This document shows, piece by piece, positions 3,806 to 17,619 of a DNA stretch of 41,211 nucleotides (position 1 is the stretch's first letter; every line of letters starts with the position of its first letter). Source of the stretch: Lysobacterales bacterium (lineage in GTDB: Bacteria; Pseudomonadota; Gammaproteobacteria; Xanthomonadales; SZUA-36). The notes below the pieces were generated by a model that was not told the origin of the DNA, ran no database searches, and worked only from the letters and a program-made list of their open reading frames with translations. A program made the position numbers and the translations under genes. The stretch is from NCBI GenBank assembly GCA_029859505.1, contig JAOUCZ010000007.1:1-41211 (forward strand). Reading direction: 5' to 3'.

Positions 3806-4534
3806 CTACTCCTCGTCTGACATCGCCTCAATTTCAGCGAGGACATCATCCAGATCGATATGCCGGACATCCATACCTAATACCATGTAGATAATGTGTT
3901 CGGCAATATTCTGACAACGATCTGCGAGTCGCTCCAACGAGCGAACTGCCCATATGATATTCATGACCTGGGGTATGACCTGCGGGTCCTTACCCATTTG
4001 TTTCACAAGTTGCTTGACTACTTTTTTGTATTTTTTATCAACCTTCCTGTCCGCTTTGACCACCAGGATGGCGGTATCCACATCGGTTCTGGCAAATGCG
4101 TCAAGTACCTGGCGTAACATTTCACGGACCAGTTCACCCAGGTACTCCAGGTCAGAACGGGTGTCATCTTCAAGCGCGCCGTCCATGTCCTTGCGAGACA
4201 TCCTGGCAATTCGCTTGGCCTCATCACCCATGCGTTCCAGATCATTAATTGTCTTGGTCACTGCCATGACGAGACGTAAATCCGTGGCGGCAGGCTGGCG
4301 CAGCGCAACGATTCGGGTGCACTCTTCGTCTATATCCACTTCCAGAGAATTGACGATTGAGTCGGCACTCACAACGTCTTTGGCGAGTGCTGACTCGTCG
4401 TTCACCAGTACCCGCAACGCATTGGCGAGCTGGCCTTCGACAATTCCGCCCATATGCAATACCTTGCTGCGAACTTCCTCCAGTTCCTCATTGAAGCGGC
4501 GGGAAATGTGCTGGCCAAGATGCAAATCACTCAT
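3806..4534 (-). CDS. phoU: Phosphate signalling protein PhoU
   Basis: This 242-residue protein is a standard-length PhoU of two three-helix repeats. The two metal-binding helix motifs are visible as L-E-R-M-G-D-E-A in the first repeat and L-E-R-L-A-D-R-C-Q-N-I-A-E in the second. PhoU links the Pst transporter to the PhoR sensor kinase in the cytoplasm and damps phosphate uptake when phosphate is plentiful. It is the last gene of the pstC1-pstA1-pstB1-phoU run, 19 bases after pstB1, the usual position for phoU. No phoB or phoR is present in the window. A second, fused PhoU-like protein lies at 12892-13947, so this one is probably the canonical partner of the large Pst permeases and PhoR. Confidence 0.95.
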   Translation of the reverse strand: MSDLHLGQHISRRFNEELEEVRSKVLHMGGIVEGQLANALRVLVNDESALAKDVVSADSIVNSLEVDIDEECTRIVALRQPAATDLRLVMAVTKTINDLERMGDEAKRIARMSRKDMDGALEDDTRSDLEYLGELVREMLRQVLDAFARTDVDTAILVVKADRKVDKKYKKVVKQLVKQMGKDPQVIPQVMNIIWAVRSLERLADRCQNIAEHIIYMVLGMDVRHIDLDDVLAEIEAMSDEE

Positions 4535-7028: not shown

Positions 7029-9278
7029 TCACAGCGAACTGTACTTTTCACGCAGGCGCTGACGGATCAGCTCAGCCCCGGTATTAACAACAAAAGTAAA
7101 CATGAACAAAACCAGTGCAGCCAGGAACAGAATTCTGTAGTGAGAACTGTTCATGGCGGACTCGGGCATTTCAACAGCAATATTCGCTGCCAGCGTGCGC
7201 ATACCCTCAAACAGGTTCCAATCCATGATTGGTGTATTACCAGTGGCCATCAACACGATCATGGTTTCACCCACAGCGCGCCCCAGACCGATCATGACCG
7301 CCGAAAACATGCCCGGACTGGCGGTTGGCAATATTACCCTGACCAGGGTCTGCCAGGAGGTCGCGCCCAGTGCCAGAGATCCGTCAGAAAGAGACTTTGG
7401 CACACCGTAGATTGCATCCTCAGCAATTGAGAATATGGTCGGGATAACCGCAAAGCCCATCGCACAGCCCACTACCATCGCATTTCTCTGGTCATAGGAA
7501 ATACCCGCCTCATGGCTTAGCCAGGTACGCAGGTCACCTTTAAAAAACATATCCTGAAGCGGACCGACAAATTCAAGTGACACAAAGCCGAGGACTACCA
7601 GAACCGGTAATAAAAGAACCGGTTCCCAGCCTTCCTTCACAAGGTTTCTGGCACTTTGAGCAGCCCTGGTCCAGAACCAGGCAAAAAGAAGCAATCCTGC
7701 CGGCATTACCAGCATCATGGATAACACACCGGCGAGATTTTCCTCAAGAAATGGTGCAAACCAAAGACCAGCGAGAAAACCAAGAATCACCGTCGGTAAT
7801 GCCGCCATAATCTCAATGGCTGGCTTCACCATCCTGCGCAAGGCGGGCGACATGAAATAGGCTGTATAGGCCGCTCCCATCAAGGCCAGCGGCAACGCGA
7901 AAAGCATGGCATAGAGAGCTGCTTTCAAAGTGCCAAAAGCCAGAGGCGTCAGGCTGAACTTTGGTTCGAATTCATTACTTGATGCCGATGACTGCCAGAC
8001 ATACTCGGGCCCGGAATAATTTTCATACCAAACCTTCGACCACAGTGATGCAAATGACACCTCCGGGTGTTCATTGTCGATATCCATGAATTCCGCAGGG
8101 CTATCGCCATACAGCACCAACAGACCTGACGCCCGGGGTGCCAATGCCAGGGCTGCGGGCTGACCTGACAGTTTTTCAGTTAATACCACCTTCCCGGCAG
8201 TGCTGTGGAAAATAGTCAGGTTGTCATCGGCATCTACGGTCATGAAACCTTTCCGGCGTTGTTCTGGAACAATCCGGGTCACCGCTGCCTGTTGACCTTC
8301 AAATCGCCGAATCTCTTTCAGGCTATATTGATTCCCCCCGCCCCTGACCGGAAAAAGCTGAGTGACATTACCATCAGCATCACCTGCCAGTACCGAGATG
8401 CCTCCCAGTAGCATATTCATGCTGGTGATGATGGTATCAGAGACCTGAACGACCTGAATCACCTCCATATTGGCCGTACTGATAAAATGAATCCGACCAC
8501 TTTCATCACCCAGGTATAGCCAACGATGATCGTTGCTTATGGTGATCGCTACAATTTCAAAAGCAACATCCAGGGCGCTGACACTAATTTCAAGACTGAC
8601 TTCGCCGCTAAGAAAATCTTCACGCTTGAGGCTCCTTTCAAACCGGACCCGCCCGCCAGTTCCTGCCACGGCCAGTACCAGTTCTTTTTCGTTGTCTGAC
8701 AAAGCCAAACCCGTGATACCGCCACCAGGCATGAGTTCACGTTGGCCGCTACCATAGGGAAAATCGAGCTTCGGAATGATCTTTCTTAATTCAACACCGG
8801 CAGAAAAATCGGTACTGTATTGATTCTGTAACAAACTGACCATGCCATCTTCAAATGCCACGGCTACCAACCCGCTATCCCCCTGGGCACCCATGGCAAC
8901 CGCTACGTTCCGGCCACCGGATACAATTTCAGTTGATTCAAGCAGTTCTAAACCGTTCAGCCTGAAGAACTCAGCTGATCCATTTTCTGTGATTCGGAAA
9001 GCGACCTGTTGCTGTTCTTCAAGCGCCAGAAAAGAGGTCTCACTTTTGAGCCACGCTGGATTGTCAGTCAGGACTGTCCGCGACATTTTGGCCGACAAAA
9101 ACAGGGGGGTTACGACATATATCAAATAGAACAGAATCAGCAGTACTGCGGCAATCACCACGAAGCCACCCAATCCAATAATTTTGCTGGCCAACCGGTC
9201 CTTGCGACCTCGCCACAGGTGAAAATTATCCGAACGCACGGCAATCTTCACCGGTCCGGCTTTGTGGGCTGAATTCAT
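7029..9278 (-). CDS. pstC: Phosphate ABC transporter permease PstC, large type with propeller-like domain
   Basis: At 749 residues this is more than double E. coli PstC. A membrane helix at about 33-55 is followed by roughly 380 residues of short beta-rich repeats (about 60-440) that look like a WD40-type propeller. Residues from about 450 form the six-helix permease domain with the EAA loop ([11 protein letters not shown]). Long PstC proteins of this design are known from Pseudomonas-type Pst systems. The start is uncertain: ATG 9278 has no good ribosome site and lies almost at the transcription start predicted from the Pho box at 9301-9318, so it may be leaderless. A GTG at 9239 preceded by GGTGAAG is an alternative. 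No pstS belongs to this unit; it may share the one at 14058-14939. Confidence 0.92.
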   Translation of the reverse strand: MNSAHKAGPVKIAVRSDNFHLWRGRKDRLASKIIGLGGFVVIAAVLLILFYLIYVVTPLFLSAKMSRTVLTDNPAWLKSETSFLALEEQQQVAFRITENGSAEFFRLNGLELLESTEIVSGGRNVAVAMGAQGDSGLVAVAFEDGMVSLLQNQYSTDFSAGVELRKIIPKLDFPYGSGQRELMPGGGITGLALSDNEKELVLAVAGTGGRVRFERSLKREDFLSGEVSLEISVSALDVAFEIVAITISNDHRWLYLGDESGRIHFISTANMEVIQVVQVSDTIITSMNMLLGGISVLAGDADGNVTQLFPVRGGGNQYSLKEIRRFEGQQAAVTRIVPEQRRKGFMTVDADDNLTIFHSTAGKVVLTEKLSGQPAALALAPRASGLLVLYGDSPAEFMDIDNEHPEVSFASLWSKVWYENYSGPEYVWQSSASSNEFEPKFSLTPLAFGTLKAALYAMLFALPLALMGAAYTAYFMSPALRRMVKPAIEIMAALPTVILGFLAGLWFAPFLEENLAGVLSMMLVMPAGLLLFAWFWTRAAQSARNLVKEGWEPVLLLPVLVVLGFVSLEFVGPLQDMFFKGDLRTWLSHEAGISYDQRNAMVVGCAMGFAVIPTIFSIAEDAIYGVPKSLSDGSLALGATSWQTLVRVILPTASPGMFSAVMIGLGRAVGETMIVLMATGNTPIMDWNLFEGMRTLAANIAVEMPESAMNSSHYRILFLAALVLFMFTFVVNTGAELIRQRLREKYSSL

Positions 9279-9426: not shown

Positions 9427-10224
9427 TTATCCGTAACGGCCTTCGATATAATCGGTCGTTTCTTTGTGTTTCGGCGTCAGGAACATTTCACCCGTTTCTG
9501 TATGTTCAATGACCTTACCCATTAGCATGAATATGCATTCCTCACTGGCACGCCTGGCCTGCGCCATATTGTGGGTAACGATCAGAATGGTATATTTTCC
9601 ACGTAATTCCCAAAGTAGTTCTTCAACGGCCTCGGTACCTTTTGGATCGAGCGCAGAACAGGGTTCGTCCATCAGCAATACACTGGGTTTTACCGGTAGC
9701 AGGCGTGCAATACATAACTTCTGCTGTTCTTCCAGAGAAAGTGTGGTGGCCTTGTGGTCAAGCTTGTCCTTAACCTTGTCCCATAACAGGACCTGTTTCA
9801 GAGCACTCTCGACGATTTCGTCCTGTTCCGCTTTACCGGTCTTGCCACCTGTATGGATGGTATGGCCGAAAAGGATATTTTTGCGAATGGAGATGGGTAG
9901 CGGATTGGGCCGCTGGAATACCATACCCACCTGTTTTCTTACCTGTAACATCTCTACATCGGAACCAAAGATGTTCTCCCCCATCACATCGACTTCCCCA
10001 CTGATCCGGACATAATCCATACGTTCGTTAATCCGGTTGACCGTGCGAAGAAAGGTACTCTTCCCGCAACCGGATGGACCAATCATCGAGGTAATCAGGC
10101 CCTGTTTGATATTCAGGTCGATATCAAACAGGGCCTGGAAAGTTCCATACCAGAGGTTCAGTTTCCTGGTGCTAATAGCGAGACTGGTATCGATCGCGGT
10201 GCTGTTCTCCCGGGTTGTCATCAA
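9427..10224 (-). CDS. PstB-like ATPase with degenerate signature motif
   Basis: This 265-residue protein is clearly PstB-type, including the E-G-R-Y-G C-terminus. Its own nucleotide-binding face is intact: Walker [10 protein letters not shown] at 49-57, Q-loop Gln104, Walker B Asp186-Glu187, canonical D-loop S-A-L-D, H-loop His218. However, the signature motif L-S-G-G-Q is replaced by L-S-L-E-E at 162-166, followed by Q-Q-K-L. In ABC ATPases the signature completes the ATP site of the partner subunit, so this protein would cripple the partner's site while keeping its own. Its start overlaps the stop of the neighbouring PstB-like gene by 4 bases, and that neighbour has the opposite set of defects. 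I infer they form a heterodimer serving PstC2/PstA2. A simple second pstB is less likely because the changes are complementary. Confidence 0.88.
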   Translation of the reverse strand: MMTTRENSTAIDTSLAISTRKLNLWYGTFQALFDIDLNIKQGLITSMIGPSGCGKSTFLRTVNRINERMDYVRISGEVDVMGENIFGSDVEMLQVRKQVGMVFQRPNPLPISIRKNILFGHTIHTGGKTGKAEQDEIVESALKQVLLWDKVKDKLDHKATTLSLEEQQKLCIARLLPVKPSVLLMDEPCSALDPKGTEAVEELLWELRGKYTILIVTHNMAQARRASEECIFMLMGKVIEHTETGEMFLTPKHKETTDYIEGRYG

Positions 10225-11036
10225 CCAAATCTCCCTTCAACGTAATCACGGGTACGCTGATCACTGACTTCACCGGTAAACAAGTCCTCGGTGACGGCGA
10301 CATCGACACATTGTCCCTCCAGGAAAAAAGCGGTCCGGTCTGCCAGGCGCCTCGCCTGCTGAACCAGGTTGGTCACAAGAATTATGGTGATCTCATTCTT
10401 CAACTCTTTGAGCACATCTTCGATACGCATTGTGGTGACGGGATCTACCGCAATTGAAAACTCATCCAGCATCAATAATTCAGGATCCTGTGAAAGCGCC
10501 CGGGCGATAGTCAATCGCTGTTGCTGACCACCGGATAACATGCTTCCAAGTGAGTTGAGACGGTCTTTCACCTCGTCCCACAATGCTGCCCGGGTCAGAC
10601 AACGCTCAACGATAACATTGAGTTCTGCCTTGTTCTTCAAACCAGCCAGGCGGGGTGCAAGTGCGACATTGTCATAAACTGAAAGCGGCAGACCAACGGG
10701 AAGTGGAAATACCACACCAATACGACTTCTCAGACCGTAAACATTCCGCACCTTACTGATGTCTGTCCCGTCAAATGTGATCTTCCCGTCGATTTTCATC
10801 CCGGGATTAAACATATCCATACGGTTGATCGCTTTCAGAAAAGAGGTCTTACCTGCATTCGCGGGCCCGATAATGCCGAAAATTTCATTTTTCCGGATAT
10901 CGAATGATACGTTTTGCAATGCCGGTCCGGTCTCGTAATGGATCGAAAGGTTCTCGACGCCCAACTTAACCGGAGACTGTTCTGTTCCATCTTTGACCAA
11001 TGACCTGTCCTCGTTCACAGCGTTGCTACCTACCAT
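10221..11036 (-). CDS. PstB-like ATPase lacking Q-loop Gln and H-loop His
   Basis: This 271-residue PstB paralogue keeps Walker A (G-P-A-N-A-G-K-T at 57-64), a canonical signature L-S-G-G-Q at 157-161 and the Walker B pair Asp181-Glu182. The Q-loop glutamine is Pro111 (F-P-L-P in place of F-Q-K-P), the H-loop histidine is Asn213 (V-T-N-L in place of V-T-H-N), and the D-loop region reads S-I-A-V-D instead of C-S-A-L-D. Loss of both the Q-loop and H-loop residues predicts a site that binds ATP but hydrolyses it poorly. The intact signature could complete the ATP site of the neighbour at 9427-10224. The gene overlaps both neighbours (pstA2 by 7 bases, the other ATPase by 4), so equal co-production is likely. 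Membership of the PstB family is firm; the heterodimer is inferred. Confidence 0.88.
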   Translation of the reverse strand: MVGSNAVNEDRSLVKDGTEQSPVKLGVENLSIHYETGPALQNVSFDIRKNEIFGIIGPANAGKTSFLKAINRMDMFNPGMKIDGKITFDGTDISKVRNVYGLRSRIGVVFPLPVGLPLSVYDNVALAPRLAGLKNKAELNVIVERCLTRAALWDEVKDRLNSLGSMLSGGQQQRLTIARALSQDPELLMLDEFSIAVDPVTTMRIEDVLKELKNEITIILVTNLVQQARRLADRTAFFLEGQCVDVAVTEDLFTGEVSDQRTRDYVEGRFG

Positions 11037-11908
11037 TTCTTCTTGCCCCGCAGATACATACGCAGTGCGATCGATGCACTGTTCATCAACAGCACCATGC
11101 CAATCAATACCAGTGCAACACCATAGGGCACCGCCTCAGGCATTTCCGGAACCTGGGTAGAAACAACGAATAAATGCAATGACAGCGCCATGGTCTGATC
11201 GAATACACCCTGGGGCAGAAACGGCAGGAAGAACACTGCGCCGGTGAACATAATCGGTGCGGTTTCACCTGATGTACGCGAAACCTCCAGGATCACACCG
11301 GTCAATATACCGGTCACTGCATTGGGCAAAACGATTCGACGTATAGTCTGCCAGCGTGTGGCGCCCATGTTCCAACAGGCCTCACGGAATGCCATCGGAA
11401 CCGCCTGTAACGATTCGCGGGTCGCGACGATAACCACCGGGAGGGTCATAACTGCAAGGGTCAGACTGGCCGCCAGGATACTGGTACCGAAACGGAAAAA
11501 GAGTACAAAGGCACCCAGGCCAAACAGGGCATGTACGATAGAAGGCACGCCCGCGAGGTTAATAATGGCGAGATTGATGGCTCGTGTGAACCAGTTGTCA
11601 GGCGCATATTCACTCAGGTAAATTGCTGCCGCCACACCCAGTGGCACAGAAGCCAGCAAGGCAACCAGCACCAATAGAATCGTACCCAGCAACGCCGGAA
11701 AGATACCACCGGCTGTCATACCGTTGGTTGGACTGGTGAATAGGAAATCAAAGGAGATGACCGGTGCGCCCTTTACAATCAAAGTGCCCAGGATCAGCGC
11801 GACCGGCAAGATCAATGTTGCAGTCATACTGCCGAGTAAAAAACGGAAAATTTTCTGGCGTGTGAGGTTCTTGAGATTAATCGGGCTTGCTTCAAACATG
11901 TTCTTCAT
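11030..11908 (-). CDS. pstA: Phosphate ABC transporter permease PstA, second system
   Basis: This 292-residue protein has the length and layout of the E. coli type PstA. It has six predicted membrane helices and an EAA loop (F-R-E-A-C-W-N-M-G-A-T-R-W-Q-T-I) for contact with the ATPase. The conserved segment S-G-E-T-A-P-I-M-F-T-G follows. It overlaps pstC2 by 4 bases and the downstream ATPase gene by 7. With PstC2 it forms the channel of the second importer, whose two half-sites for ATPases would face the two different PstB-like proteins encoded next. It has no large insert, unlike PstA1 at 5360-7018, so the two systems are not a recent tandem duplication. Confidence 0.94.
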   Translation of the reverse strand: MKNMFEASPINLKNLTRQKIFRFLLGSMTATLILPVALILGTLIVKGAPVISFDFLFTSPTNGMTAGGIFPALLGTILLVLVALLASVPLGVAAAIYLSEYAPDNWFTRAINLAIINLAGVPSIVHALFGLGAFVLFFRFGTSILAASLTLAVMTLPVVIVATRESLQAVPMAFREACWNMGATRWQTIRRIVLPNAVTGILTGVILEVSRTSGETAPIMFTGAVFFLPFLPQGVFDQTMALSLHLFVVSTQVPEMPEAVPYGVALVLIGMVLLMNSASIALRMYLRGKKKW

Positions 11909-12834
11909 CCCTTCTTCACACCACGGACAACCAGGTCTGCGATCAGGTTAATGACGAAGGTAATCAGGAATAGCGATATACCTATCGTAAACAATGCCTT
12001 GTAATGGGGTGAACCCACAGCGGTTTCCCCGAGCTCTGCGGCAATGGTCGCGGTCAATGCACGCACCGAATCAAACACACTGCCTGGAATATTGATGGCA
12101 TGACCGGTGGCCATTAACACCGCCATGGTTTCACCAAAGCCCCTTCCGACTCCCAGTAACACCGCACCCAACAGTCCGTTTTTTGCAGCAGGCAGCACGA
12201 CTTTGTAAATCACTTGCCAACGGGTTGCACCCAGGGCTTCAGCCGCCTCGCGATAACGATCCGGCACGGCTTTTAGAGCGTCCTCGGCGATCGATGTCAT
12301 GATCGGTGCCGCCATAAGACCGAGAATGATGCCTGCATTCAAAACATTCAATCCAACAGGGACATCAAAAATATCAATAATCAGCGGATTCATGATAGCC
12401 AGGCCAATGAAACCCCACACAACGGATGGAATGGCCGCCAGTAACTCAACTGTAATTTTAAGAAATTCGCGTGTCTTACCAGTTGCAAACTCTGCAATGA
12501 AGATCGCTGTACCTAACGAAAACGGTATTGCAACAAGCATGGCAAGACCGGTGACGCTGGCAGTACCGGCAATCAGTGCCAGGATACCGTAAGTGGCCTT
12601 GTTCTCAGATGTTGGCCGCCAGTTAGGAGAGAGGAAGAACTCTTTAAAACTGAAGTCCCCCAACAGGAAACCCATACCTTCCTTGGTGATAAATATAAAT
12701 ATCCCAATAATAAACACGATAGCCGAAATGCCACCGATGAAGACCAGGATCTGAACAGCCTTGTCGATATACCAGTCTCGATTCAAGCGATCAAAATCGG
12801 TAGTTTTTGATGAAGCCCGGGTTTGTTTGTTCAT
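11905..12834 (-). CDS. pstC: Phosphate ABC transporter permease PstC, second system
   Basis: This 309-residue permease has normal PstC length and six helices after a short cytoplasmic N-terminus. The EAA loop reads Y-R-E-A-A-E-A-L-G-A-T-R-W-Q-V-I, and the PstC segment G-F-G-E-T-M-A-V-L-M-A-T-G-H follows. It lacks the propeller-like domain of PstC1. It lies 57 bases after the PhoU-like fusion gene and overlaps pstA2 by 4 bases. Together with PstA2 it would move phosphate delivered by the lipoprotein PstS encoded upstream in the same run. Confidence 0.94.
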   Translation of the reverse strand: MNKQTRASSKTTDFDRLNRDWYIDKAVQILVFIGGISAIVFIIGIFIFITKEGMGFLLGDFSFKEFFLSPNWRPTSENKATYGILALIAGTASVTGLAMLVAIPFSLGTAIFIAEFATGKTREFLKITVELLAAIPSVVWGFIGLAIMNPLIIDIFDVPVGLNVLNAGIILGLMAAPIMTSIAEDALKAVPDRYREAAEALGATRWQVIYKVVLPAAKNGLLGAVLLGVGRGFGETMAVLMATGHAINIPGSVFDSVRALTATIAAELGETAVGSPHYKALFTIGISLFLITFVINLIADLVVRGVKKG

Positions 12835-12891: not shown

Positions 12892-13947
12892 CTAACTGGC
12901 ATCATCGCCTGCCATAATGGTCATTAACTGTTGAATTTCATCACGTAACGCGCGATAGGTCTCCGCGAGATCTACATCCTGTGGCAACACCCAGTTTAAT
13001 GCCGACGTATGAAATGGCACTTTGGATATGTAGTCCGAATACTTACCATTGAGACTCACTATGATTGTGAAATCATCAAGATCATGTTCAGACACTTCCA
13101 GTTGCTCTGTCGTCAGTTCTTCATCAGGTAAGCCTCTTTCATCGAGGAATTCCTGTAATTGGGCCGAAACCGAATCGGAAGTACCGGGAGTTGCAGGCAT
13201 GAAAAACCCACTTTCAGGAAAATTCTTTCTTCCAATGGCGGAAGCAAGTTGAGCCAAACCTGAACCCGGTTGATCGAGAAACAGGACACGATAGGTTTTC
13301 GGAATTTTTGCAATACCCTTCACCGCGTAGACGGTCTGGTCACAGATGTTCTTAGCCTGGTCGACTATCCGTTTTAGCAAATTGAACACAACAAAGATGG
13401 CCATCATACTGGCCCCATCCATGCGGTCATCTTCGGCAAACAGTGTCTCGTAAACCCCATCCATACGGTTTTGCACACGCTTCGCCACTTTCATCAGGGC
13501 AATCGCCATATCTGCATTTCCATCACGAAACGACTTACGGGCATCCGAAAGAATGGAGATTGACTCATCAAACATTGCATCGCTGCTCTGGGTAAGCTGA
13601 GCAGAGATCGGAGAGGTTACCTGCAAGGCCTCACGACTGATGGTAACGGCGTAATCACCGATTCGCTCCATCGCCACATTGACACGCGAGGTAGCAGCCA
13701 TTTCACGTAACGGGCCGGCACCCGGCAGATGACGGGCAATGAACGTATGGCAAAGCCGGTCACATTCACGGGACTCCCGGTTAATCGGGTAATCTCCCAA
13801 CACCGTTTGATAGGCGATCTCGCTATCCCGTAATATCATTACCTTCTTTGCACTATGCAGTGCGGTATCGACATCTTCACCAATTTTCCAAAGCCGATCC
13901 CTGATAATCTTCAGATCGGCTTCCATACGCTCTTCAAAATGACTCAT
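12892..13947 (-). CDS. PhoU-domain protein fused to a degenerate LMW-phosphatase/ArsC-like domain
   Basis: Of 351 residues, 1-215 are a PhoU unit with E-R-I-G-D-Y-A at 94-100 and the second-repeat motif L-K-R-I-V-D-Q-A-K-N-I-C-D at 191-203. Residues 219-345 are not PhoU. They read like a low-molecular-weight tyrosine phosphatase/ArsC arsenate reductase domain: an opening strand V-L-F-L at 221-224, a P-loop position, then A-x-A-I, a later strand T-I-I-V-S-L-N at 294-300, and a closing L-N-W-V-L-P followed by Y-R-A-L-R-D-E-I. The catalytic C-x5-R loop is lost: Cys is Asp225 and Arg is Leu231. It sits between pstS and pstC2, so it probably modulates the second Pst system. The PhoU part is firm; the fold of the tail is my reading and lacks database support. 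Confidence 0.8.
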   Translation of the reverse strand: MSHFEERMEADLKIIRDRLWKIGEDVDTALHSAKKVMILRDSEIAYQTVLGDYPINRESRECDRLCHTFIARHLPGAGPLREMAATSRVNVAMERIGDYAVTISREALQVTSPISAQLTQSSDAMFDESISILSDARKSFRDGNADMAIALMKVAKRVQNRMDGVYETLFAEDDRMDGASMMAIFVVFNLLKRIVDQAKNICDQTVYAVKGIAKIPKTYRVLFLDQPGSGLAQLASAIGRKNFPESGFFMPATPGTSDSVSAQLQEFLDERGLPDEELTTEQLEVSEHDLDDFTIIVSLNGKYSDYISKVPFHTSALNWVLPQDVDLAETYRALRDEIQQLMTIMAGDDAS

Positions 13948-14057: not shown

Positions 14058-14939
14058 TCAGCCGCAACTTACATCATTCACAGATGCATAACCTTTTTCA
14101 AGAATGATGCACTGTCCGGTGTCACTCTTGATCCAGTTGAGATATTCACCCACATAACCGCTGGGTTCACCATTGGTATACATGAATAAAGGACGGGCAA
14201 TTGGATAACTGCCGTCACTTGCACTAGCAACGGTAGGTTCGACACACGAGCCACCCGTTTCTGTTGCGATACAGGCCAGCTTGAGATGATCGGTTGCATA
14301 GGCAAGTCCGCTATAACCGATTGCACAAGGTGTGTTTTCAACCAGGTCAACCACGTCCTTTGAGCCATGCATATCACGGGTTCCAAGACGGAAGTCCCCT
14401 TTGCCAAGCACGGTCCCACGGAAATACGCGTAGGTTCCTGAATTGTTCTGACGACTTACAACCACCATGGTCTGGTCTTTACAACCTGGTACTTCCACTC
14501 CGAGGTCAGTCCATTTTGTGAAACTGCCACCATCACCATAAATTTTGGCTAGCTGCTCGATGCTGATAGAGGCCAAGGGATTGTCCGCATGCAGATACAC
14601 TGCCAGCGCGTCATAGCCGACAACATGCTGAATCGGGTCATGACCACTATCCCTGGCCAATTTAATTTCCTTATCCTTCATCGCACGACTTGAATTTGCA
14701 ATATCAACTGTACCGTTGATCAGTGCTGCAATACCCGTTCCGGAACCACCGCCACTCACGGCCACGACCGTGGCTGGATCAACCGTCTGGTAAGCTTCGG
14801 CCCAAGCCTGGGCAACATTGACCAGCGTATCAGAACCCTTATTCTGGATAACCTGACGATCCTGTCCACCACCGCAGGCGGTCAGTAAAACAGACACTGT
14901 CGAGATGAGCACAGCCGACAAAACATTGCGCTTAAACAT
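14058..14939 (-). CDS. pstS: Phosphate-binding lipoprotein PstS
   Basis: From ATG 14939 this encodes 293 residues. The signal peptide ends in lipobox L-T-A-C, with Cys22 the lipidated residue, so the protein is tethered in the periplasm. The phosphate-binding signature S-G-G-G-S-G-T-G-I-A-A-L and the later N-S-S-R-A-M are visible. A longer frame starts at ATG 14972, but I choose 14939 because GGAG lies seven bases before it, it opens directly with a good signal peptide, and 14972 lies about where transcription should begin from the Pho promoter (-10 at 14978-14983). PstS captures phosphate and hands it to the permease. It is first in its operon and is the only pstS in the window, so it may serve both Pst channels. 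Confidence 0.92.
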   Translation of the reverse strand: MFKRNVLSAVLISTVSVLLTACGGGQDRQVIQNKGSDTLVNVAQAWAEAYQTVDPATVVAVSGGGSGTGIAALINGTVDIANSSRAMKDKEIKLARDSGHDPIQHVVGYDALAVYLHADNPLASISIEQLAKIYGDGGSFTKWTDLGVEVPGCKDQTMVVVSRQNNSGTYAYFRGTVLGKGDFRLGTRDMHGSKDVVDLVENTPCAIGYSGLAYATDHLKLACIATETGGSCVEPTVASASDGSYPIARPLFMYTNGEPSGYVGEYLNWIKSDTGQCIILEKGYASVNDVSCG

Positions 14940-14977
14940 TAGAAATCTCCATTTTGGATAATATAAAACCATGTAAG

Positions 14978-15087: not shown

Positions 15088-17619
15088 TCAATCTTCCGAT
15101 ACTGACATTATACGTAATACCTTTGATAAAAAGTCATTGCTGAGCTGACGTTCCATGCTACCTTCACTACATGAGGCTTCACCGAACTTGACCGGTTTAC
15201 CAGGCTTATCAACGCCCGACTGGTAGATCAGCGCTGGCACCGGATCAGCACTATGGGAACCCGTATTGCTGTTGGTCGTATGATCTGAGGCAACCGCAAT
15301 CGTGGCCTTCACTTTAAGCAAAGGCTTTAACGCCTGATCAATACGTTGCAGGAAATCCCGTTTTGCCAGGGGCTTTCGATCATGGGAACAGATATCCGGC
15401 GCTTTAACATGTATAAACACCAGGTCATGACTCTTCAACGCCTCTTTGACCGCAGTGATCTTCGCGTCCAAATCGGTGTCCATTGCCGCTGTGAAGCGGG
15501 CATCTTCAATTGTATCGAAGCCGAACATACGACCCAGGCCAAGTACAGTATTACAACCTGATATCAGGCCCGTTTTGAGTCCGTGCTGATTCAGCATGTT
15601 GTCCAACTCGATTTGTGACCCTGCACCACGTGTAATAATACCGTTGGCCGGCAGTTTTCCACTGTGGGACCTGGCTTTGTTGACCGGATGATCGTTAAGA
15701 AGCCTGTGGGCCTCTAGAATAAAGCGGTTAATCTTTACTGCTGTCAACTCTGCTTCCGGCTTCAATGGCTGACAGATACTAAGGGCAGCCGGCATCCTGA
15801 GGTCACCTGGATCCGAATCAGTGATGGCATCCGAAAGGCCGGGGCCTGAAAGAATAAGTACACCACGATGTTGGTCGGTTGATAAAAACCTGCCGCGAAT
15901 ACCATCGCCAAGATCGACATCTGCTAAACATGATGCCAGTTCGTCTGTATCGTTAGTGATCCTGCCGGCCCTCCGGTCTGTTACCAGGAAAACTCCCTCT
16001 TTATGCTCGATGGTAGCAAAATTGGCTCGTACGGCGATTTCACCCGGCAATAGTGCCTGCCCCGCTCCGGCAGCTTCAACAGGGCCGCGTTTCAATCGGT
16101 CGGCCTGCTCCGGCAGGAGCCCCATTAACATTCCCGTTCCAGAATGGGTGTTGGGGATTTCACCCGGAATGATAGGGTCTACCAGGCCATACAAGCCCGA
16201 ACCGGCCATTTGATCAAGAATAGGAGTGTTTGCCGCTTCCAATGGTGTCTTTCCATCCAGTTCGGGAATAGGCAAATCTCCAAGTCCGTCAATGATGAGC
16301 AAAACACACTTGCTGCGCAAAACAGGTTCTTCAACCGGTGTTTCCTTGTCTTGCTGCGATGATGGCTGGTCCCGCAACAAACTAACCAGTTCATGCCATG
16401 GCCTGGCTTCGACCTCCTGCGAAAGCTTGTCGACAACAGTACCGAATACCTCTCTCACCGAACCTTTAAACTGTTTACGCAGTTCTGCATTGACCTGACG
16501 GGTGATTTGCAAAATGGCCTTTTCTTTTTCTTCGGATTTAACAATCGGCACATTGCACCGGTCGGCCTCCGACAGCAGAAATGACTGAAGACTCCATATT
16601 GACTCAAGGTTATTCAAATACCTACGGGGTTTTCTTTGCGGTGCATCAACACCTCTACCTTTCAAACGTGCCTTGATTTTTTTTGACTTTAGAACTGCCA
16701 GCATGACGTAAACCTTGATGACATCTGAGCCACCAGGCACACGCTCAAGTAACTCCGGATGAACATGCACACCTTCCATAATGATGGGCACACCTTCCTC
16801 TACCGCCCGTTGTAATACTGCTTCACAGGGTACTGCCAGCAGCTCGGCCTGGCTCTTGTAACCTTCTGCAACCAGATGATCCCATTCACGATTGGGTTTG
16901 TCCTGAATAGGGAGCGTTTTCCAGGCATCGAATGAAGAGCAGTGCAATACCGGCAGCAAACGCTCCGGAATCATCACTCGCATAACCTCGCGGAGCATAT
17001 CGGTAGACTGAATTCGAACGATTTCCAGCAGATGGGCCATCTCCGTGGCGATGGTGCTCTTGCCGGCGGCAACCGTACCTCCGATCAAAAGCATCAATGG
17101 CCGCTTGCTATCCTGAAACTCAGACCAAACCAGGTACCGTTTGGCTGCATTGTCACCCACCTCTTGCTGCAGACACAGGTAAGTCAGGTAGCCAAGTTCA
17201 AAGGTCGAAATGGAGCTGATTCCATCTGCAATCAATTGCGCATAAACTTGCTCTGTCGTGTACTCGGCTTTTTCCATTTTCAGGCCTGCTGACTGCAGAT
17301 ATCTCGTATGCTGGCCACGAGAAAATGCACTTTCTACATCATTCAGGCTTGTAACCAGAATCTTTGGCGGTGACACCGACGGCACGATATATTGCTCGAG
17401 CACCTCGAACTCACCCCTGTTTCTCAATTGGTCAGCAACCTTTTCCTGCAGTTTTTCTGTGGTAATTTTTTTCGTATTGGCAATTTCGTCGCGAATCTTT
17501 GTCGCAATAGCAAATGCATCTTCGAATGCAAGACCTGCATCAAGCAGACTCCGGGTCAGGATTCCACGCAGAAATGGTGTTTTCTCATTCTCTCTTTTGT
17601 TGACGACAATCGTTTTCAA
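15088..17619 (-). CDS. ATP-cone / 2-phosphoglycerate kinase-like / phosphoglycerate mutase (ApgM-type) fusion
   Basis: This 843-residue protein has three parts. Residues 1-90 resemble an ATP-cone regulatory domain. Residues about 95-390 are a P-loop kinase of the 2-phosphoglycerate kinase type (Walker A G-G-T-V-A-A-G-K-S-T at 180-189, then S-T-D-M-L-R-E). Residues about 435-840 are a metal-dependent phosphoglycerate mutase of the archaeal ApgM/alkaline phosphatase superfamily, with metal-ligand candidates Asp444, Asp742, His746, Asp779-His780 and His789, and a nucleophile region N-T-H-S-G-T-G at 490-496. In methanogens, 2-phosphoglycerate kinase makes 2,3-bisphosphoglycerate. The start is TTG 17619 behind AAAGGA. 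It lies just upstream of the pst island. The product may interconvert phosphoglycerates and store phosphoryl groups; that role is inferred. Confidence 0.82.
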   Translation of the reverse strand: MKTIVVNKRENEKTPFLRGILTRSLLDAGLAFEDAFAIATKIRDEIANTKKITTEKLQEKVADQLRNRGEFEVLEQYIVPSVSPPKILVTSLNDVESAFSRGQHTRYLQSAGLKMEKAEYTTEQVYAQLIADGISSISTFELGYLTYLCLQQEVGDNAAKRYLVWSEFQDSKRPLMLLIGGTVAAGKSTIATEMAHLLEIVRIQSTDMLREVMRVMIPERLLPVLHCSSFDAWKTLPIQDKPNREWDHLVAEGYKSQAELLAVPCEAVLQRAVEEGVPIIMEGVHVHPELLERVPGGSDVIKVYVMLAVLKSKKIKARLKGRGVDAPQRKPRRYLNNLESIWSLQSFLLSEADRCNVPIVKSEEKEKAILQITRQVNAELRKQFKGSVREVFGTVVDKLSQEVEARPWHELVSLLRDQPSSQQDKETPVEEPVLRSKCVLLIIDGLGDLPIPELDGKTPLEAANTPILDQMAGSGLYGLVDPIIPGEIPNTHSGTGMLMGLLPEQADRLKRGPVEAAGAGQALLPGEIAVRANFATIEHKEGVFLVTDRRAGRITNDTDELASCLADVDLGDGIRGRFLSTDQHRGVLILSGPGLSDAITDSDPGDLRMPAALSICQPLKPEAELTAVKINRFILEAHRLLNDHPVNKARSHSGKLPANGIITRGAGSQIELDNMLNQHGLKTGLISGCNTVLGLGRMFGFDTIEDARFTAAMDTDLDAKITAVKEALKSHDLVFIHVKAPDICSHDRKPLAKRDFLQRIDQALKPLLKVKATIAVASDHTTNSNTGSHSADPVPALIYQSGVDKPGKPVKFGEASCSEGSMERQLSNDFLSKVLRIMSVSED

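Follow-up and report, generated by a model that had tools for sequence, protein, structure and literature searches.

The window analysed here, a stretch of 41,211 nucleotides from a Lysobacterales bacterium (assembly GCA_029859505.1, contig JAOUCZ010000007.1, positions 1 to 41,211 of the forward strand), carries on its minus strand, at 12892..13947, an open reading frame that we call phoU* and whose product, as profile comparisons confirmed, is a PhoU protein fused to a descendant of the ArsC/low-molecular-weight phosphatase superfamily. Sequence evidence further supports the view that this C-terminal domain is an ArsC fold devoid of the nucleophile Cys, the P-loop Arg and the redox cysteines, which retains a different conserved patch. 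The gene sits in a six-gene variant of the Pst phosphate importer operon that also encodes two ATPases, PstBa and PstBb, altered in complementary motifs, and the fusion and these mismatched ATPases, taken together, suggest a mode of control over phosphate import. The families of the components are known and it is their combination that is new; a search of the open-licence PubMed Central literature, which covered titles, the openings of abstracts and some passages, found no description of a fusion between PhoU and an LMWPc/ArsC domain.

The frame spans 351 codons uninterrupted by a stop, and therefore encodes 351 amino acids. Its PhoU part, residues 1-212 (13312..13947, minus strand), is recognised by the Pfam profile PF01895 over two stretches, as expected for a protein with two PhoU repeats, the better of which covers residues 21-106 and scores 58.3 bits against a cut-off of 23.5, and the solved PhoU structure 4q25 matches residues 3-212 with an E value of 1.5e-15. 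The model for full-length PhoU, TIGR02135 (phoU_full), aligns over residues 7-211 at 96 bits, which is under its cut-off of 130.25, so that PhoU* does not qualify as an equivalog. What PhoU* has in common with the proteins of these two families is thus the PhoU repeats and the location of its gene inside a pst operon, while it departs from them in that sub-equivalog score and in an additional domain of 137 residues. When ten full-length relatives were scanned, LMWPc was found above the Pfam cut-off in five, below it in one and not at all in four, and in those five PhoU and LMWPc both exceed their cut-offs within one polypeptide, which bears out the fusion that had been proposed from the window sequence.

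Residues 215-351 (12895..13305, minus strand) correspond to the additional domain. Taken alone, this part of the window protein has no match to LMWPc or ArsC in Pfam or NCBIfam, and LMWPc/ArsC was likewise matched in Pfam by none of the 17 nearest domains (those of the window and its 16 closest relatives). A profile built from these 17 domains, when compared with the Protein Data Bank (PDB), returned 14 sequences at E<=10, nine of which, including the top six, are ArsC or low-molecular-weight tyrosine phosphatase (LMW-PTP) structures; the best E values were 2.4e-4 (2l19), 2.7e-4 and 3.1e-4 (1y1l), and the first unrelated entry appeared at 0.072. With a profile of 50 domains, 21 PDB sequences were retrieved at E<=1, of which 20, led by 2ipa at 9.9e-10, are labelled as members of the ArsC/LMW-PTP superfamily, and the remaining one, 4egs, the weakest at 0.79, is labelled RpiB. 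At E<=1, Pfam LMWPc is found in 32 of the 50 domains (best 1.6e-11) and, as it is matched by none of the 17 nearest ones, all these matches fall among the 33 others; arsC_pI258_fam is matched at E<=0.1 by 26 of the 50. When the domain profile was aligned to other profiles with hhalign, E was 8.6e-17 against six ArsC sequences (129 columns) and 1.6e-7 against nine LMW-PTP sequences. Both the 17-row and the 50-row alignments exclude L016 and L019, whose domains are cut by contig ends and which both have Asp at position 225, and L070 and L069 were removed from the ArsC comparison set because in the frame supplied neither resembled ArsC.

Membership in the superfamily is therefore established by similarity along the whole domain, through relatives rather than through the window protein itself. 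The profile check put forward with the original prediction accordingly fails for this protein on its own and succeeds once profiles are made from its homologues. As to the label given there, LMW-PTP/ArsC, the superfamily holds, and these comparisons place the domain nearer to ArsC than to the LMW tyrosine phosphatases; the landmark order read from the bare sequence also stands, its N-W and Y-R being matched by HW and FR in ArsC. With the ArsC enzymes (TIGR02691 and TIGR02689; PDB 2ipa, 2l19 and 1y1l; in LMWPc, PF01451) the domain shares whole-domain profile similarity and that order of landmarks, but it differs from them in being attached behind PhoU, in having neither the nucleophile Cys nor the redox Cys pair, and in having the P-loop Arg in one of 50 cases. 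Structure prediction is compatible with the ArsC/LMW-PTP fold, even though these models alone prove no family: AlphaFold returned low-confidence models for the domain and the whole protein (predicted local distance difference test values of 46.7 and 44.9, respectively, from input alignments of 4 and 5 sequences). In a Foldseek search with the low-confidence domain model, PDB ranks 1-11 were all ArsC/LMW-PTP, with a best E value of 3.5e-3 and none reaching 0.001, and VIA-align gave the same low-confidence model Z scores of 8.8 with ArsC, 8.3 with LMW-PTP and up to 7.9 with receivers, values that count as tied by the rule of the tool; the rows near ArsC also include a PTS IIB domain.

The fusion is not confined to the window. 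In the window's own family (f1, genomes G000-G036) it was found in 18 of 37 genomes, in three of which it is cut by contig ends, and a sample of 398 genomes from the order contained 19 with the fusion, namely those 18 plus G040 from another family. Searched with the 17-domain profile, a class sample of 369 genomes yielded seven more genomes with the fusion, and a phylum sample of 398 genomes yielded 26 fusion loci in 22 genomes from other classes; the full-length domain is present in at least two classes. Stand-alone ArsC-like matches (L097, L120-L122) were excluded from these counts. A scan of genome contigs gave ten loci, four of them PhoU* fusions (one cut by a contig end), and the contigs bearing near relatives are from metagenome-assembled genomes of Lysobacterales, Proteobacteria and Oceanospirillales. 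No fusion was found in the viral contigs searched for it.

The original prediction held that D225 and L231 occupy the ends of the C-x5-R loop, so that both the nucleophile and the Arg are lost, and the alignment of 50 domains agrees with this and extends it well beyond the window protein. The former P-loop, which now reads D225-QPGSG-L231 (13255..13275, minus strand), has Asp at position 225 in 47 domains and His, Gly and Glu in one each, so that the catalytic Cys is missing from all 50, and Arg at position 231 is present in a single one; the domain cannot thus be counted among the C-x5-R enzymes. A CX5R string does occur elsewhere in the domain in five of the 50 members, never at the P-loop position, and 15 domains are entirely free of Cys. 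The two redox cysteines of ArsC, seven residues apart, would fall at positions 300 and 307, where Cys is found in none of the 50; the former lies in VSLNG (residues 297-301; 13045..13059, minus strand), which the hhalign alignment places at the end of the V-x-C strand bearing the redox Cys in ArsC, and is occupied by Q (24 domains), N (17), E (6), K, S and D (one each). The Asp-Pro acid loop of the LMW phosphatases, aligned with residues 323-324, is also missing (Asp in 9 of 50, Pro in none), with a placement that is less sure in this gappy part of the alignment. In relatives from outside family f1, D-E-D-N-S or a similar loop is often found, near the T-G-N-S of ArsC, and the loop has diverged further in f1. 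The single Arg-bearing domain, L104:1501-1926 (plus strand), has Asp at the Cys position and is a possible intermediate.

Other residues are strongly conserved. The most conserved segment of the domain, PFHTSALNW in the window protein (residues 311-319; 12991..13017, minus strand) and PFHTxxLxW as a motif, contains F312 and W319, both invariant in 50 of 50, and H313 (49/50), and further on L341 (50/50) and R332 (45/50) are kept as well. Position 227 is acidic (D or E) in 32 domains, that is in 31 of the 34 outside family f1 and in 1 of the 16 within it, window included. Among members of f1, pairwise dN/dS ranged from 0.09 to 0.25 for the domain and from 0.02 to 0.08 for the PhoU part; these figures are rough, as they derive from the pairs with estimable dS, nearly all with dS of about 1 or more and several saturated.

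Around phoU*, and all on the minus strand, lie pstS* for the binding protein (14058..14972; TIGR02136, 228.9 bits against a cut-off of 206.6), the permease genes pstC* (11905..12834; TIGR02138, 280.6 against 196.45) and pstA* (11030..11908; TIGR00974, 258 against 193.45), and the ATPase genes pstBa (10221..11036; TIGR00972, 274.9 bits) and pstBb (9427..10224; TIGR00972, 323.7 bits), so that the PstS, PstC, PstA and PstB set of a Pst importer is complete, with both PstB proteins under the TIGR00972 cut-off of 343.2. The neighbourhood of phoU* was examined at 36 of the 51 loci found elsewhere than in the window (10 of 17 in f1, the one in G040, 7 of 7 from the class sample and 18 of 26 from the phylum sample), and the order pstS-phoU*-pstC-pstA-pstBa-pstBb is conserved in 34 of them, in some of which pstS or pstBb is cut by a contig end. 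Of the remaining two loci, L133 is on a contig that ends within pstC, and L160 is a real exception. The suggestion that the fusion is set in an unusual Pst operon was hence correct, and the survey it called for shows that the fusion does accompany the pair of variant PstB genes. Among 340 genomes sampled from the class, six, one of which is the window's own, have a PstC* match at E<=1e-80, and each of the six carries PhoU*; G744 and G754, which hold the full operon (L129 and L127), are absent among the PstC* matches listed. Over 32 operon sets including the window, median pairwise identity was 75.1% for PstA, 74.7% for PstBb, 72.6% for PstBa, 71.9% for PstC and 61.4% for PstS, and in the same sets it was 41.5% for the PhoU part and 33.8% for the C-terminal domain of PhoU*.

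The two ATPases differ from ordinary PstB proteins in complementary ways. In all 35 PstBa proteins, window included, Walker A (GPANxGK), the LSGGQ signature and Walker B (LMLDEF) are found together with GVVFP (for GMVFQ) and VTN (for VTH), hence with the Q-loop Gln replaced by Pro and the H-loop His by Asn; the D-loop of the window protein reads SIAVDP. In all 34 PstBb proteins, again with the window, Walker A, the Q-loop and VTH are intact and the signature is degenerate, LSLEE in 32 and LSLEQ in two. These counts, made with a filter on identity and length, omit L160, the truncated PstBb protein from L161, and L133, whose contig stops before these genes. By comparison, Gln, SGGQ and His are all kept in 27 of 27 ATPases recognised by TIGR00972 (the window's canonical PstB plus 26 from other genomes; three of the 27 score under the family cut-off), which were obtained from 30 rows after omission of the partial L192 and of the window's PstBa and PstBb. 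In a tree of PstB sequences, the PstBa proteins form one clade with support of 1.0, and the PstBb proteins another, which is weakly supported (0.34). This complementary degeneracy (9427..11036, minus strand), which is the same in every homologous pair examined, is arguably as notable as the fusion.

In ABC transporters a composite ATP site is built from Walker A, Walker B, the Q-loop and the H-loop of one subunit and the signature of its partner, as laid out in PMC7756269. By this rule, the changes described above would give a PstBa/PstBb dimer one complete site and another without Gln, His and signature, as in transporters with one degenerate site, and sequence comparison thus predicts an importer with a single catalytic ATP site in the heterodimer. 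The same split is described in PMC7756269 for the exporters Pdr5 and ABCB2/B3, where the signature is altered in one nucleotide-binding domain and the H-loop, with other motifs, in the second, and where one consensus site is likewise predicted; unlike those exporters, the system studied here is an importer of the Pst type, whose ATPases are separate subunits and which has PhoU as a partner. An adjacent pstB pair within one pst-phoU locus, with unequal roles, is also described for Enterococcus faecalis (pstB1/pstB2) in PMC12096839; the system studied here differs in that each PstB is without what its partner retains.

In canonical systems, PhoU acts together with PstB and PhoR. In the reading that we favour, and to which we give about an even chance, PhoU* would be a regulatory subunit dedicated to a distinct phosphate importer of the Pst type, and its dead domain a docking or allosteric module acting on the asymmetric ATPases. 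The importer would be powered by a PstBa/PstBb heterodimer, in which the Walker A and B motifs, Q-loop and H-loop of PstBb face the LSGGQ of PstBa to form the hydrolysing site, while the PstBa motifs, without Gln and His, face the LSLEE of PstBb to form the degenerate one. The non-catalytic C-terminal domain would then place PhoU on one face of this asymmetric pair, and PhoU* might either brake the pump or report its turnover to phosphate signalling. The heterodimer, its single catalytic site, the contact of PhoU* with it, and the role of the domain, be it sensing or docking, are what we infer from these sequences.

Some of our data weigh against this reading. The tie between PhoU* and the PstB proteins comes from association and not from contact, and an interface might be expected to be better kept than a domain at 33.8% identity next to ATPases at 72.6 and 74.7%. 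This last point, however, is not decisive, because the canonical proteins differ in the same direction, PhoU being less conserved than PstB (45% vs 74% at L087). For the same reason, we dropped the idea that fast change is a special feature of PhoU*. The exceptional locus L160:8064-10697 holds a second PhoU* of genome G787, located beside a PstC-like protein of 281 residues and a PstB-like protein altered in Walker A, Q-loop, signature, Walker B and H-loop, and hence it argues that the domain is not strictly dependent on PstBa and PstBb. Such an arrangement is possibly a signalling-only derivative; it is flanked by what we take to be genes of Pit-type transporters.

Other explanations for the domain were considered. 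It could be an oxyanion sensor, with phosphate or arsenate still bound in the former pocket of the P-loop and the cytoplasmic level relayed to PhoU; in favour of this, the ArsC-family fold binds arsenate or phosphate and the domain is encoded in a phosphate importer operon. We regard this as unlikely, however, because an Asp is present and the Arg is missing (Cys is replaced by Asp in 47 of 50 domains and Arg lost in 49), and a negative charge in an anion loop without Arg should repel an oxyanion. The conserved D225, along with H313, could alternatively mean that the loop was rebuilt as an acidic pocket (D225, D/E227 and perhaps H313) for a metal ion or a phosphoryl group, turning the domain into a switch of another chemistry. 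The preference for acidic residues at position 227 outside f1 fits this proposal, but their near absence within f1, window protein included, and the low confidence of the domain models count against it, and the 16 Pfam families that the 50 members match at E<=1 include no receiver or HAD family; we judge it rather improbable. On the latter ground both the receiver and the HAD readings were rejected. A receiver domain in place of an ArsC relative was in fact hinted at by the ILFVDEDN... stretch, similar to a receiver start, and by the tied Z score on the low-confidence model, yet the profile searches gave ArsC/LMW-PTP, and hhalign, for which the sets were ArsC and LMW-PTP, aligned 129 columns of the domain with ArsC, so that we find this reading scarcely credible.

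That the domain is a decaying remnant without function might be argued from the lost catalytic residues and from a variability greater than that of the PhoU part. The retention of its full length in two or more classes, the near-invariance of F312, H313, W319 and L341, and the dN/dS values well under 1, rough as they are, speak against decay, which appears improbable to us. An enzyme with an alternative nucleophile would account for the conservation of D225, and Asp does act as nucleophile in other phosphatase families. However, the domain has lost Arg and the redox Cys pair, there is no conserved Asp-Pro loop and Cys is altogether missing from 15 of the 50 domains, all of which makes an enzyme of this kind very improbable.

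Returning to PhoU* as a dedicated regulator of its pump, the reading can be carried further, to a separate class of importers: a pump with a single working ATP site, in which the dead site and the dedicated PhoU would together form a control point read by an ArsC fold that carries an acidic or docking surface in place of the Cys loop. We consider this broader proposal possible, if doubtful. To our knowledge, the contacts through which PhoU links phosphate signalling to the Pst pump are not settled. A naturally occurring PhoU that has an extra module, paired with ATPases that are asymmetric in sequence, could offer a system for resolving the orientation and number of PhoU molecules on PstB, and an importer in which one catalytic ATP site is predicted would be a test case for why one such site can suffice.

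The window also contains a canonical pst set, with phoU at 3872..4510 and the pst genes up to 9278. The canonical PhoU is encoded in an open frame of 254 amino acids, too short to accommodate the extra domain. The PstC of this set (7029..9278, minus strand) has 749 amino acids, and its N-terminal half gave weak beta-propeller matches under the Pfam cut-offs. Just upstream of pstS*, at 15088..17619 on the minus strand, is a neighbour not assigned to the operon, which encodes an 843-amino-acid protein combining an ATP-cone/2-phosphoglycerate kinase with a cofactor-independent phosphoglycerate mutase. Two half-length genes replace it at the same place in L136, L138, L141, L143 and L144, one half-length match is found in L134, and in L130 both halves lie downstream of pstBb.
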